DNA from: a virus
Strand: one strand, 5' to 3'
Length of the DNA stretch: 27,471 nt
IMG/VR virus record: IMGVR_UViG_3300028844_003329
Coordinates: 1-27,471 of that record
Shown one piece after another: positions 9,054 through 13,488 of this stretch. The position numbers and the translations under genes were made by a program. Under the pieces are notes generated by a model, which had not been told where the DNA came from, did not search any database, and worked only from the letters and a program-made list of their open reading frames with translations. The stretch's first letter is position 1, and each line of letters begins with the position of its first letter.

Positions 9054-9216
9054 TTATCTTAATTTCTTGATGGTGTCGTTGATATCTGATAGTTGTGGAA
9101 TAATTTTTCCAATATCTGAAGCGGTAGATTGCATAGAACTTTCCCGTTGAATTTCTACAAGAGCATTTTGTAAATCCTTAACAAGTTTGCTTGAGGAATT
9201 GTTTTACGGTTTTCAT
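9054..9216 (-). pseudogene. Frameshifted capsid-targeted small protein gene
   Basis: An ATG at 9216, directly after the preceding stop (TAAATG), starts MKTVKQFLKQ, a leader like those of neighbouring genes, but the frame stops after 12 codons at 9178. A second frame, open from about 9203, gives LVKDLQNALVEIQRE and continues to a stop at 9054, one base before the gp15 ATG. Removing a single A of the AAA at the leader end would join the two into a protein of about 53 residues. The leader has Q where cleavable relatives have E at position 10. This may be a genuine one-base mutation, a sequencing error or, less likely, programmed frameshifting. Confidence 0.6.
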
Positions 9217-9465
9217 TTATAATTTTCTTGTTATGAAGTTGATAGCACCTTTTAAAGATGGATGTGTTCCCCAACCTTTAATCACTGTCATGTTTTTATC
9301 GACTATTACCATAATAAATTTATCTTGTGGTTTTGGCATCCCATCTATATCTCGTTTTATAACCAATCCTCGTTTGCCATTTTTTTCATCGGTACTATGT
9401 AGGATATGTTTTTGGTCCCGTGTTGATAGAGACATTTCTGATAAAAGTTCTTTGTATGTTTTCAT
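9217..9465 (-). CDS. Putative capsid-targeted internal protein (82 aa)
   Basis: This 82 aa protein begins MKTYKELLSEMS, nearly the T4 IPI/IPIII leader, with L-S-E as the cleavage site. The mature part is basic and looks alpha/beta, with a strand-like FIMVIVDKNMTVIKGWGTHPSLKGAINFI segment whose predicted pattern (strand, turn, strand, helix) differs from the purely helical relatives. Its ATG overlaps the upstream stop (ATGA). The first 30 bp are identical to those of the next upstream gene although the mature proteins are unrelated, indicating a shared 5' cassette end. The function of the mature part is unknown. Confidence 0.72.
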   Translation of the reverse strand: MKTYKELLSEMSLSTRDQKHILHSTDEKNGKRGLVIKRDIDGMPKPQDKFIMVIVDKNMTVIKGWGTHPSLKGAINFITRKL

Positions 9466-9725
9466 ACATCCTCTAATTCTTTTCTAAGTTCTTGTTTTCT
9501 AGCGTTTGTGATCTTCTTTTTAATCTTTATCCTCGGTTCTTCGCCATTAATAATACTGTTTAATGAACTGATTATAGCGTTCTTTGGCTTGTCTTTCATT
9601 CCTGTAATAACCGTTTTAATTTTTGTACCATTGAGGATAGCTTTCATCATAGTTTGTAAAGGATCAGTTACATTCACTCCTTTACCGCCACCTGCTTCTG
9701 ATAAAAGTTCTTTGTATGTTTTCAT
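9436..9725. repeat. 30-bp direct repeat at two internal-protein gene starts
   Basis: Bases 9436-9465 and 9696-9725 are identical. Each copy encodes the first ten codons (MKTYKELLSE) of adjacent genes. Identity ends where the mature proteins begin, consistent with the leader moving or being maintained as a cassette end. Confidence 0.9.
9462..9725 (-). CDS. Putative capsid-targeted internal protein, Gly-rich junction (87 aa)
   Basis: This 87 aa basic protein begins MKTYKELLSEAGGGKG. L-S-E followed by Ala is a near-ideal gp21-type cleavage context (T4 IPs have I-A-E before Ala). The mature part is Lys-rich with two hydrophobic helices and a basic C-terminus. It lies just downstream of gp14, where T4 has gp15 next. 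AAGGAAT lies upstream of the ATG. No domain is recognised; a DNA-associated internal head protein is a reasonable inference from charge and leader. Confidence 0.72.
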   Translation of the reverse strand: MKTYKELLSEAGGGKGVNVTDPLQTMMKAILNGTKIKTVITGMKDKPKNAIISSLNSIINGEEPRIKIKKKITNARKQELRKELEDV

Positions 9726-9743: not shown

Positions 9744-10367
9744 TTAAAATTTTTCACTCCAAGGATCGTTTTCGCTGAAGTCTATTACTCCCTGACCTTC
9801 CGTATCAAATTCTGGATTGTCTGCAAATGGATCGTTAGTTATTGAATCGGCGTTTAAAAAGTCTTCCTCTATTTCATCTATTTGGGTTACACCAGTATCT
9901 AGAACTTCTCCAGAATATTGATACAACTCACATGATAGTTTGAATGTAGTTGTTTTTCCTCTTGGATAAAACGGTTGTTCGTCTTCTACAAATTTAATTT
10001 CAAACAATCCATCAGACAATGGAAAGTACACAAGATCGCCTTCGTTTGGTTTATCAAGACCAGTTGTATCTTGGAATTTTGATTGTGATACGGATAGATT
10101 TAATTCATCACGAACTTCGTAACCAAATTTAGATATGATATCTGATTCACCTTCAAACCCATCAACCGAATCTATATACATATCGATTTCATAAGCTTGT
10201 TGGAAAGCATTTTGAGTATCTTCACCAAATAATTTATCTTTATTTAAAAATACTCTTGGAACATATATAATATCAATACCATTGAATGATATAGCTTCTC
10301 TGGTTAAGTCGTCTATTAATCGTTGTTCGTTTTGGTTGTTGTAATTATTTACAAAAAAGTTGGACAT
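9744..10367 (-). CDS. gp14: Neck protein (head completion)
   Basis: This 207 aa protein corresponds to T4 gp14 (256 aa), which with gp13 forms the neck connecting the filled head to the tail. The N-terminal signature is NEQRLIDDLTREAISFNGIDI followed by YVPR and an LFGED motif (residues about 12-50), as in T4 gp14. A conserved ISKFGYEVRDEL segment and the GDLVYFPLSDGLFEI region follow. The acidic C-terminal tail is shorter than in T4. The first 20 codons are duplicated as a remnant 300 bp upstream. Confidence 0.93.
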   Translation of the reverse strand: MSNFFVNNYNNQNEQRLIDDLTREAISFNGIDIIYVPRVFLNKDKLFGEDTQNAFQQAYEIDMYIDSVDGFEGESDIISKFGYEVRDELNLSVSQSKFQDTTGLDKPNEGDLVYFPLSDGLFEIKFVEDEQPFYPRGKTTTFKLSCELYQYSGEVLDTGVTQIDEIEEDFLNADSITNDPFADNPEFDTEGQGVIDFSENDPWSEKF

Positions 10368-10713
10368 TATTTAAAATAATTCTCCATATAAACTACCTAA
10401 TTTACCAATATCTTTTTTCATTTTGTCCATAGATGCTAGTAGTTCTTGATCTAATTTAATATATTCGTCAATAGCTTTTTTTCTTTCTATTGTTGTTAAA
10501 TGTGATGTATTTTTTAGTCCACTCATTACATCACTAGAATGAATTCTATCTCTTTCAAAATTTTTAATATCTATTATCATTTTCATTGCTTTTTTTTTGT
10601 AATTATTTACAAGATTGGATATATTTTTATCTTCATTTAAAAATTCTTTGTATGTTTTCATATTAGTTTGTCGTCTATTAATCGTTGTTCGTTTTGGTTG
10701 TTGTAATTATTTA
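10308..10713. repeat. 44-bp direct repeat from a duplicated gp14 5' end
   Basis: Bases 10308-10351 and 10670-10713 are identical over 44 bp. The first copy lies within gp14 (around codons 6-20) and the second in the 23-codon remnant ORF. Similarity continues past the identical block to both ATGs with a few substitutions (SNFFV against TNYFI). Confidence 0.93.
10371..10661 (-). CDS. Putative capsid-targeted internal protein, paralogue C (96 aa)
   Basis: This 96 aa protein begins MKTYKEFLNEDK, with L-N-E as the expected gp21 site. The mature part is Lys-rich and helical. Its middle (FERDRIHSSDV, then YIKLDQELL) aligns with FSKDRISTPEA and YIDLQNSLS of the gene at 10729-11007, so the two are diverged paralogues. 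The ATG overlaps the stop of the gp14 remnant ORF (ATGA). It sits directly upstream of gp14. No domain is recognised; an internal head protein is inferred from leader and context. Confidence 0.74.
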   Translation of the reverse strand: MKTYKEFLNEDKNISNLVNNYKKKAMKMIIDIKNFERDRIHSSDVMSGLKNTSHLTTIERKKAIDEYIKLDQELLASMDKMKKDIGKLGSLYGELF

Positions 10714-10729
10714 TGAAGTAGTTTGTCAT
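10658..10729 (-). pseudogene. Truncated duplicate of gp14 N-terminus (23 codons)
   Basis: The 23-codon ORF encodes MTNYFINNYNNQNEQRLIDD, then KLI and a stop. Its first 20 residues match the gp14 start at 17 of 20 positions. The last three codons match the C-terminus of the gene at 11004-11309 instead. It is coupled on both sides: its ATG overlaps the upstream stop (TAATG) and its stop overlaps the next ATG (ATGA). I read it as a recombination scar. It may be translated as a short leader that keeps ribosomes running into the next gene. Confidence 0.85.
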
Positions 10730-11007
10730 TATAAAACTCTAATAAAAGTCTTTAAATCTATTAACGCTTTTTTGTAATTAGTTTGTGTTGCTGATAGGGA
10801 ATTTTGCAAATCTATATATCTACTTCTAAAATTCTTTGCTTTTTTTTCATCTACCAATCTTCTATCTATTGTTGCAAAAGCTTCTGGTGTTGATATCCTA
10901 TCTTTAGAAAATTGTTCTATAGTTTTTAACAATTTTTCAATAGTTTTTAGATCATTGAGTAAACTTTTTTTCTTTTCTTCTCTTATAAATTCTTTGTATG
11001 TTTTCAT
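10729..11007 (-). CDS. Putative capsid-targeted internal protein, paralogue B (92 aa)
   Basis: This 92 aa protein begins MKTYKEFIREEKK, with I-R-E as the presumed cleavage site. The mature part is basic and almost entirely helical, probably a helical bundle or coiled coil, and shares the F-x-x-DRI and YI-x-L motifs with the gene at 10371-10661. The ATG overlaps the upstream stop (ATGA). It is one of four genes sharing an identical 18-nt start encoding MKTYKE. Function unknown; internal head protein by analogy. Confidence 0.74.
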   Translation of the reverse strand: MKTYKEFIREEKKKSLLNDLKTIEKLLKTIEQFSKDRISTPEAFATIDRRLVDEKKAKNFRSRYIDLQNSLSATQTNYKKALIDLKTFIRVL

Positions 11008-11309
11008 ATTAGTTTGTCGTCTATGGCCTGTTGTACTAGTTCAATAATATCAACTTTTTTCATTTTTAATAACTGGTCTGGTTCTATTCTAATTTTTAAA
11101 TCATCTAGTCGAATCTCTTTTGTTCCCCATTGAAGAAATCCTCTAGGAACTCCTTTAATATCAGTAAAAATTCTAATGATAGTTGATCTACCTAATATTG
11201 TTCCAAATGATCTATTCACACCACCTTTACCTACTTTTGAATTTGGGTTTATTATTTTTCTTGCTGTTGTAAATGGCGATTCTTTTATAAAATTTTTGAA
11301 ATTTATCAT
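11004..11309 (-). CDS. Putative capsid-targeted internal protein (101 aa)
   Basis: This 101 aa basic protein begins MINFKNFIKESPF, a divergent leader with I-K-E as the possible gp21 site. The mature part looks alpha/beta: a GKGGVNRSFGTILGRST loop region, strands around TIIRIFTD and RGFLQWGTKEIRL, and a C-terminal helix ending AIDDKLI. It is not evidently related to the helical paralogues downstream. Its ATG overlaps the stop of the membrane protein gene (ATGA). The codons for IDDKLI fall within the 38-bp repeat and supplied one partner of the recombination that created the gp14 remnant. Confidence 0.66.
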   Translation of the reverse strand: MINFKNFIKESPFTTARKIINPNSKVGKGGVNRSFGTILGRSTIIRIFTDIKGVPRGFLQWGTKEIRLDDLKIRIEPDQLLKMKKVDIIELVQQAIDDKLI

Positions 11310-11576: not shown

Positions 11577-12311
11577 CTAGCCCACAAAATCTCTCGGCGG
11601 CAATTGGTATTCGTCTTTTAATTTTTGTTCAAGAGTTTCGATGTCTTGGGTAGCTTCGTCATATATATCTTTTCCGTTCAAGGTAACTCCACCAGTTAAT
11701 TGAACCCCATCGAATTTCTTTAGATTATTTCCCCATTGTTGTTTGATAAGTGCTGTTGTGTATTTTTTCAAGAACCAATCATCATATACATCGGTAAATG
11801 TTTCTGGATCAAGCATTCTCCACGTTTCCATAACAAATACTTGATCCACTTGGAACTTAGAAGCCCAATCTTCTTCAATAAATAGTCGGTTCTGTTTTCG
11901 GTTGAATTGAATAGACCGTTCATGATTAAAGAGAGATTGTATTAGACTTATGTTTTGTTGGAATTGGTAATATGGAATCAATCCAGAACCTACAAACGCA
12001 TTCATATCATTGAGAAAAAATTGATATTCCTCATTAAAAATATCTCCAGAAAATCCAGAAGATATTGGAAGAACACGTATGACTGTGATTACTTCATTTG
12101 GAATTGGTATATATTCATTATCAATATCTAGTTGGGTTATTGTATGTCTGAGATATACTTTTTCTACACCATCGAAATGATTCTCTCCAAAAAATTGCAA
12201 GGCTTCGTCCATACGATCTTCAAGTTGTTGATCGTCAATTTCTATGTTGATAACAGGATCGCCTAGACTTCTTAGAGAGTAATCTATCAATTCTTGTCTA
12301 GTATTTGGCAT
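11577..12311 (-). CDS. gp13: Neck protein (head-tail connector)
   Basis: This 244 aa protein corresponds to T4 gp13 (309 aa), the head completion/neck protein that binds the portal side of the neck with gp14. The N-terminus (TRQELIDYSLRSLGDPVINIEIDDQQLEDRMDEAL, in two adjacent conserved segments) is the strongest family signature, followed by VYLRHTIT, VITVIRVLPI, the FIEEDW and FVMETWR strands, and WFLKKYTTALIKQQWGNNLKKFDG. The C-terminal EYQLPPRDFVG resembles the end of other T4-like gp13 proteins. It is shorter than the T4 protein but looks complete. Confidence 0.94.
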   Translation of the reverse strand: MPNTRQELIDYSLRSLGDPVINIEIDDQQLEDRMDEALQFFGENHFDGVEKVYLRHTITQLDIDNEYIPIPNEVITVIRVLPISSGFSGDIFNEEYQFFLNDMNAFVGSGLIPYYQFQQNISLIQSLFNHERSIQFNRKQNRLFIEEDWASKFQVDQVFVMETWRMLDPETFTDVYDDWFLKKYTTALIKQQWGNNLKKFDGVQLTGGVTLNGKDIYDEATQDIETLEQKLKDEYQLPPRDFVG

Positions 12312-12744: not shown

Positions 12745-13488
12745 TTATCCCTTTTTAAACCAGATAGTGACTTTGCTAGATAATTCTGATTTTGACATTA
12801 TTGATGGAATTAGTTCTTTACCAAGTTCCTTTACCAGTTGTTCTTTGATTTTTTTACCAGTTGGATTTTTGATATCAGAATTAAAGAATTTCGATAGTCT
12901 GTTAAATGCTTTTCCTATCACTTTATCTGTTAATTCTCCGTCATCATTATTTATCTCCATAAAAATACTGAATTTTGATCGAAACGCTGTTTTGTTCTCT
13001 TCTACTTTATCAAATACTTTGCGTATGAACGCCTCTGGGACGCTCCTAGAGCGCAATTTAGCCCGTTTTAATGAAGTTTCGAGTGAAGTATTGACCCAGA
13101 TCATTGCAGTATCGTAACCAAAGTCTTTTAATACTTTATTTCGATTTATTGTGTTGGTTATATCAGCCGAAGTTGAATCAATGATCATAGGAAGCATACC
13201 ATTTATAGCCAATTCTAATTCGGCTCTTGTACTGTTTTTGGTGTCTTTGAATAGCTTGGCAAATTCTTTTGCTTCTTTATCAAATCCGGGTCCAATATCT
13301 ATATTTCTTTTGTTGGATATAAATTCTATAAACTTATCCGAATTGATAATTTTTGGTTGAATAGAGCCACTTATTATTTTGGAACTTACATATGACTTTC
13401 CAGAGCCGGGAGTTCCACCAAGAAATACTGCTTTGAATATTCCTTTATCGTTTATACCTTCTTTTAAAAATTGTTTGAATGAGATCAT
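12745..13488 (-). CDS. P-loop kinase-like protein with capsid-targeting leader
   Basis: This 247 aa protein begins MISFKQFLKEG, with L-K-E before Gly as a plausible gp21 site, so the leader would be removed just ahead of the catalytic domain. Walker A is GGTPGSGKS at residues 24-32. Further motifs fit zeta-toxin/polynucleotide-kinase-like P-loop kinases: NSD at 49-51, a second acidic strand IIDSTSAD at 102-109, the strand MIWVNTSLETSLKRA (129-143) and a basic lid R-S-R-S-VPEAFI from 146. About 50 C-terminal residues are basic and helical. The ATG overlaps the upstream stop (TAATG). The substrate cannot be told from sequence: nucleic-acid ends, UDP-sugars or small nucleotides are all possible. 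Similar leader-bearing P-loop proteins, as I recall, occur in other marine T4-like phages. Confidence 0.82.
   Translation of the reverse strand: MISFKQFLKEGINDKGIFKAVFLGGTPGSGKSYVSSKIISGSIQPKIINSDKFIEFISNKRNIDIGPGFDKEAKEFAKLFKDTKNSTRAELELAINGMLPMIIDSTSADITNTINRNKVLKDFGYDTAMIWVNTSLETSLKRAKLRSRSVPEAFIRKVFDKVEENKTAFRSKFSIFMEINNDDGELTDKVIGKAFNRLSKFFNSDIKNPTGKKIKEQLVKELGKELIPSIMSKSELSSKVTIWFKKG

Follow-up and report, generated by a model that had tools for sequence, protein, structure and literature searches.

A gp14 remnant between two internal-protein-like genes as a probable scar of recombination in a T4-like phage

The IMG/VR virus contig IMGVR_UViG_3300028844_003329, referred to here as the window (the whole stretch analyzed, 27,471 bases), carries portal, tail tube, sheath and terminase genes that match those of T4-like cyanophages and Pelagibacter phages. 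Following its neck gene 13 on the minus strand, we find a 101-aa gene, a gene denoted B, a 23-aa remnant of gp14, a second gene denoted C, and finally intact gp14 (Table 1). How did a fragment of one neck gene come to lie between two small genes, and did a single event place it there? The original prediction was that one unequal crossover duplicated an internal-protein gene together with 20 codons of gp14, and that this event explains every part of the arrangement.

Table 1. Coordinates of the features at the gp13-gp14 junction and of two nearby leader-coding stretches.
Feature	Position	Strand	Description
gp13	11577..12311	-	phrog_211, head-tail adaptor Ad2
101-aa gene	11004..11309	-	ORF; N-terminal, capsid-targeting-like leader MINFKNFIKE, then S
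38-bp repeat, 101-aa gene 3' end / B leader copy	10987..11024		38/38 identical to 10641..10678
Gene B	10729..11007	-	ORF, 92 aa; leader MKTYKEFIRE, then E; start overlaps 101-aa stop (ATGA)
gp14 remnant	10658..10729	-	ORF, 23 aa, MTNYFINNYNNQNEQRLIDDKLI and stop; in frame on both sides
44-bp repeat, remnant copy	10670..10713		44/44 identical to 10308..10351
Crossover site GTCGTCTAT	10670..10678		9 bp; coding strand ATAGACGAC, codons IDD
38-bp repeat, remnant end / C leader copy	10641..10678		ATAGACGACAAACTAAT + leader codons 1-7
Gene C	10371..10661	-	ORF, 96 aa; leader MKTYKEFLNE, then D; distant homologue of B
Intact gp14 (T4 neck protein / head closure Hc2)	9744..10367	-	207 aa
44-bp repeat, gp14 copy	10308..10351		codons ~6-20 of gp14
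Leader-coding stretch of 87-aa gene	9696..9725	-	MKTYKELLSE; 30 bp, identical to 9436-9465
Leader-coding stretch of 82-aa gene	9436..9465	-	30 bp, identical to 9696-9725

The joint and the gp14 remnant

Intact gp14 was identified by its matches to PF11649 (E=1.5e-42) and phrog_679 (E=4e-64), with the Hc2 profile spanning most of the protein, whereas the remnant lacks a full-length reading frame and stops after 23 codons. It consists of 20 gp14-like codons (MTNYFINNYNNQNEQRLIDD) fused in frame to the KLI-stop of the 101-aa gene, and it overlaps the stop of B by 1 nt and the start of C by 4 nt. The order described originally, with the remnant ending in KLI, was confirmed, and the 44-bp and 38-bp repeats were recovered to the base, together with their 9-bp overlap in GTCGTCTAT. 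In 40 Markov-1 random windows, exact repeats reached at most 18 bp, as opposed to the 44 bp observed. Exactly three copies of GTCGTCTAT lie on the + strand of the window: one is within gp14, one marks the remnant junction, and the third sits at the 3' end of the 101-aa gene (...AIDDKLI), the source of one crossover site. The IDD codons share a common frame in all three. The coding-strand joint reads ...CGATTA-ATAGACGAC-AAACTAATATG..., that is, gp14 codons up to Asp-Asp followed by Lys-Leu-Ile-stop of the 101-aa gene, whose stop overlaps the start of C. A single copy of the match lies at the joint and one at each parental site, as in a microhomology crossover, and the probability that a random joint would share at least 9 nt is about 1e-4. 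The part of the prediction that has gp14 crossing over with the 3' end of the 101-aa gene is thus well supported by the repeats, the reading frame and the distribution of the remnant among relatives.

An identical arrangement, remnant included, was found in the IMG/VR contig 3300028829_003841 (L004/G001, 70.8 kb), which differs at 2 of 6,177 bases. Assembly of a chimera from two strains in one metagenome is most improbable as the source of the joint: a strain mixture would hold both alleles, but the repeats (38-44 bp) are below typical read length and the same joint stands in this separate 70.8-kb record, though the two records may share raw reads. As a separate observation, comparison of the two contigs revealed a 35-nt deletion at window 9191-9193 (L004 6152-6349) that frameshifts a 65-aa leader-bearing gene (MKTVKQFLNE...), unbroken in both L004 and the nearest relative, L085; the deletion is either true variation or an assembly error.

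The 44-bp stretch varies among relatives, with L085 reading NNYDVSGEQRLIDE there, so that its 44/44 identity in the window means recency. Near the start of the remnant the picture is different. All six base differences from gp14 fall within the 19 nt nearest the start (P = 4e-4), and they change codons 2-6 from SNFFV in gp14 to TNYFI, conservative changes only (P = 0.003 for six random substitutions). Judged from the sequence, the 5' end of the remnant resembles the beginning of a second, functional gp14 allele that travelled with B, rather than the product of decay. Selection on the remnant as a functional short gene, a coupling peptide or a leader, would turn the repeats into a mark of constraint, and the in-frame position and the 1-nt and 4-nt overlaps agree with this; we nevertheless regard it as highly improbable, given that the identity reaches synonymous sites (same-codon probability for NNYNNQNEQRLIDD given the codon usage of this genome, P = 3e-4) and that, of 86 loci having gp13 as well as gp14, L004 alone has a remnant with the repeated gp14 5' end, the other 85 showing neither.

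Divergence of B and C and their putative internal-protein role

Both genes are predicted by AlphaFold to form the same long helical hairpin, with helices at 4-38, 41-50 and 54-91 in B (pLDDT 75.8) and at 4-38, 42-50 and 57-95 in C (pLDDT 81.5). Long helical hairpins match unspecifically in fold searches. Comparison of the mature parts gave a score of z = 4.9, with none of 2,000 shuffles as high, and together with the shared predicted helix layout this shows that B and C are real homologues, at 35% protein identity including the leader and 49% DNA identity after codon 7. They are poorer in G+C, at 24% and 22%, respectively, than gp13 (34%), gp14 (33%) and the window, which together span 32-35%.

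These values bear directly on the claim that one gene was duplicated into B and C. Since the remnant and the leader copy are identical (44/44 and 38/38) and B and C agree at only 49% of DNA positions, the joint must be young and the split between B and C old. An evenly similar duplicated interval, expected only with identical parents, was not found. A single crossover between identical sister genomes, followed by divergence of the duplicated gene into B and C, would account for the order, for both joints and for the homology of the two genes. It would also give the remnant and the B/C pair the same age; yet the presumably unneeded remnant has changed at 0/44 positions whereas about 51% of B/C DNA sites after codon 7 differ, which would demand extraordinary rates confined to B/C, and the clustered, conservative changes at 6/19 nt of the remnant 5' end are unlike decay. 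We therefore reject the one-event reading as very unlikely, and conclude that the crossover does not suffice and that one or more allele replacements must be added to it.

The leaders of B and C suggest what these genes may encode. In T4, residues 4 and 7 of the capsid-targeting leader direct targeting, while residues 8 and 10 act in processing (PMC9026906). B (MKTYKEFIRE) and C (MKTYKEFLNE) both begin with a leader of about 10 residues of the kind found in T4-type internal proteins (CTS family), and they resemble T-even IPI, IPII and IPIII (PMC3012670, PMC9026906) in having a short leader with Y4, F7, L/I8 and E10 and in that the mature proteins are small and vary between relatives; unlike these, B and C sit between neck genes 13 and 14. 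In T4, internal proteins are injected, with IPI blocking GmrSD and IPIII being required on E. coli ECOR17 (PMC3012670, PMC9391042); apart from the capsid-targeting leader, such proteins are highly diverse (PMC3012670, which cites Repoila et al. 1994 for diversity). By analogy, B and C are probably capsid-targeted, injected internal proteins.

Database searches added little to this assignment. Searches of Pfam, PHROGs, PADLOC and PDB returned no function for B or C; C matched phrog_2667 'internal head protein' weakly (E=0.07) and over residues 1-29 only, and the mature parts of both showed no detectable sequence similarity to known internal proteins. A match of B to a type I restriction model (E = 1.5e-4) was set aside as probably due to helix bias. 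Neither B, C nor the 101-aa gene had a match in 50,697 phage records; within IMG/VR, the near-identical contig L004 was the sole match for B and C, and L004 and L085 were the only ones for the 101-aa gene. Against the other leader genes of L085, B and C scored only weakly (for C and the 65-aa gene, z = 3.7). A gene for the prohead protease gp21 was not identified in the window or in G001.

A leader-like pattern is present in six further genes of the window, of 104, 87, 82, 101, 140 and 247 aa, and leader-motif alignment scans added nothing among the matches listed. The 247-aa product (12745-13488; leader MISFKQFLKE) is a P-loop protein with AAA_33 / Zeta_toxin matches, and it may be packaged and injected. 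A separate group of adjoining small proteins, at G001:C1:50116-55258, shares a motif like WYEENIxEFDxEQ near the N-termini and is a probable tandem paralogue family.

At the DNA level, the first 30 bases of the 87-aa and 82-aa genes are identical (30/30), while the mature proteins look unrelated. Within the window the four best-matched leaders, a small sample picked for matching, agree at 26-30/30 bases, as compared with 19-22/30 between orthologous leaders of the window and L085. In these four leaders, chosen for their match, tyrosine is encoded by TAC in 4/4 cases vs 27% in the genome (P = 0.005), which hints at exchange or conversion at leader-coding stretches. Such homogenized leaders lend some plausibility to an old duplication in which B and C diverged and conversion later restored the remnant from gp14 and the stretch covering the 101-aa 3' end and the leader. 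This sequence of events is nonetheless unlikely: two independent tracts would be needed, each reaching the joint, a functionless remnant would have to survive for long, and the conservative changes in its codons 2-6 are not predicted. A broader idea, possible but doubtful, is that the leader stretch serves as a shared recombination socket, with leaders homogenized per genome and mature parts swapped, so that unrelated injected proteins would be collected at the 13-14 junction, which is also a NUMOD3 site elsewhere.

The gp13-gp14 junction in relatives

Our comparison set comprised 86 loci with both gp13 and gp14, many of them near-identical and hence not independent. In 73/86 loci gp13 adjoins gp14, while 13/86 hold inserts between them. 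Inserts with similar leader genes occur in L007, L008, L046/L050, L077 and L085. At the junction of other T4-like contigs, in the place where leader genes insert here, there is a NUMOD3 gene, detected by Pfam at L091:4421-5005 and L096:4421-5005 and by close sequence similarity at L094:1063-1647; these genes are homing-endonuclease-like.

In the nearest relative, L085, gp14 is 79% identical to that of the window, and the order is gp13, a 101-aa homologue (57% identical and directly after gp13), an 82-aa gene, an 88-aa gene and gp14, all three small genes having leaders. The remnant, B and C are all absent from this locus. The ancestor foreseen in the original prediction, with a single gene separating the 101-aa gene from gp14, was not found; L085 carries two different genes with leaders in this interval. 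In L085 an 8-bp match, ATAGATGA, links gp14 and the 101-aa homologue at homologous positions, so that a short match between these two genes is not peculiar to the window phage. The 87/88-aa leader gene has orthologues after gp14 in the window (9462-9725) and before gp14 in L085 (L085:923-1189), and from this change of side it follows that leader genes move. The lineage sample amounts to two near-identical contigs and one more distant, and a gp14 scan of bacterial genome contigs yielded no relative.

A proposed allele replacement and unequal crossover

The best explanation, and one that we consider probable, is that at least two recombination events, an allele swap and an unequal crossover, took place in a locus of putative capsid-targeted internal proteins at the 13-14 junction. 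B and C would be diverged alleles of one internal-protein gene that once lay between the 101-aa gene and gp14. B would have taken the place of C in one phage, bringing with it the first ~6 codons of a foreign gp14; the exchange points would lie within the leader-coding stretch on one side and within gp14 codons 6-8 on the other. In the other step, for which the repeats provide strong support, an unequal crossover at ATAGACGAC, presumably during co-infection, would have linked two sister phages, one with B and one with C, by connecting gp14 of the former to the 3' end of the 101-aa gene of the latter, giving 101 - B - gp14(1-20)+KLI - C - gp14. Either step may have come first: a crossover followed by replacement of one copy would also fit. 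With the joint in frame, overlapping stops and starts continue from the 101-aa gene as far as C, which could preserve translational coupling. The benefit, by analogy with T4 IPI and IPIII, may be one virion with both versions of an injected protein. Against this model, gp13 and gp14 scans of IMG/VR returned no phage with B or C singly at the locus, and the replacement step is one that we infer; moreover, L085 has two other genes here instead of one, and the differences between remnant and gp14 are few (six bases).

The proposed crossover resembles processes described in T4. Tandem amplifications at 6-10-bp microhomologies are known for dmd-tifA, genes 16-18/Hp17 and rII (PMC9391042), and they share with our case unequal recombination at a short direct match, a joint that retains one copy of it and a T4-like machinery; whereas those amplifications are young laboratory products with identical copies, here the alleles are diverged and the product persists in nature. 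T4 also recombines at 3-13-nt minihomologies in a UvsX-dependent manner (PMC8262927), a range that includes the 9-nt match found here, although that process was described for deletions after CRISPR cleavage. Recombination of this kind is familiar from phage T4, and the scar is a natural instance of it, ordinary in its mechanism and unusually clean. As a base-exact natural fossil, it indicates that a T4-like phage can gain another version of an anti-defence protein that is probably injected, while the first is kept, and that the minihomology recombination of laboratory T4 also fits a product persisting outside the laboratory, between phages with different alleles.
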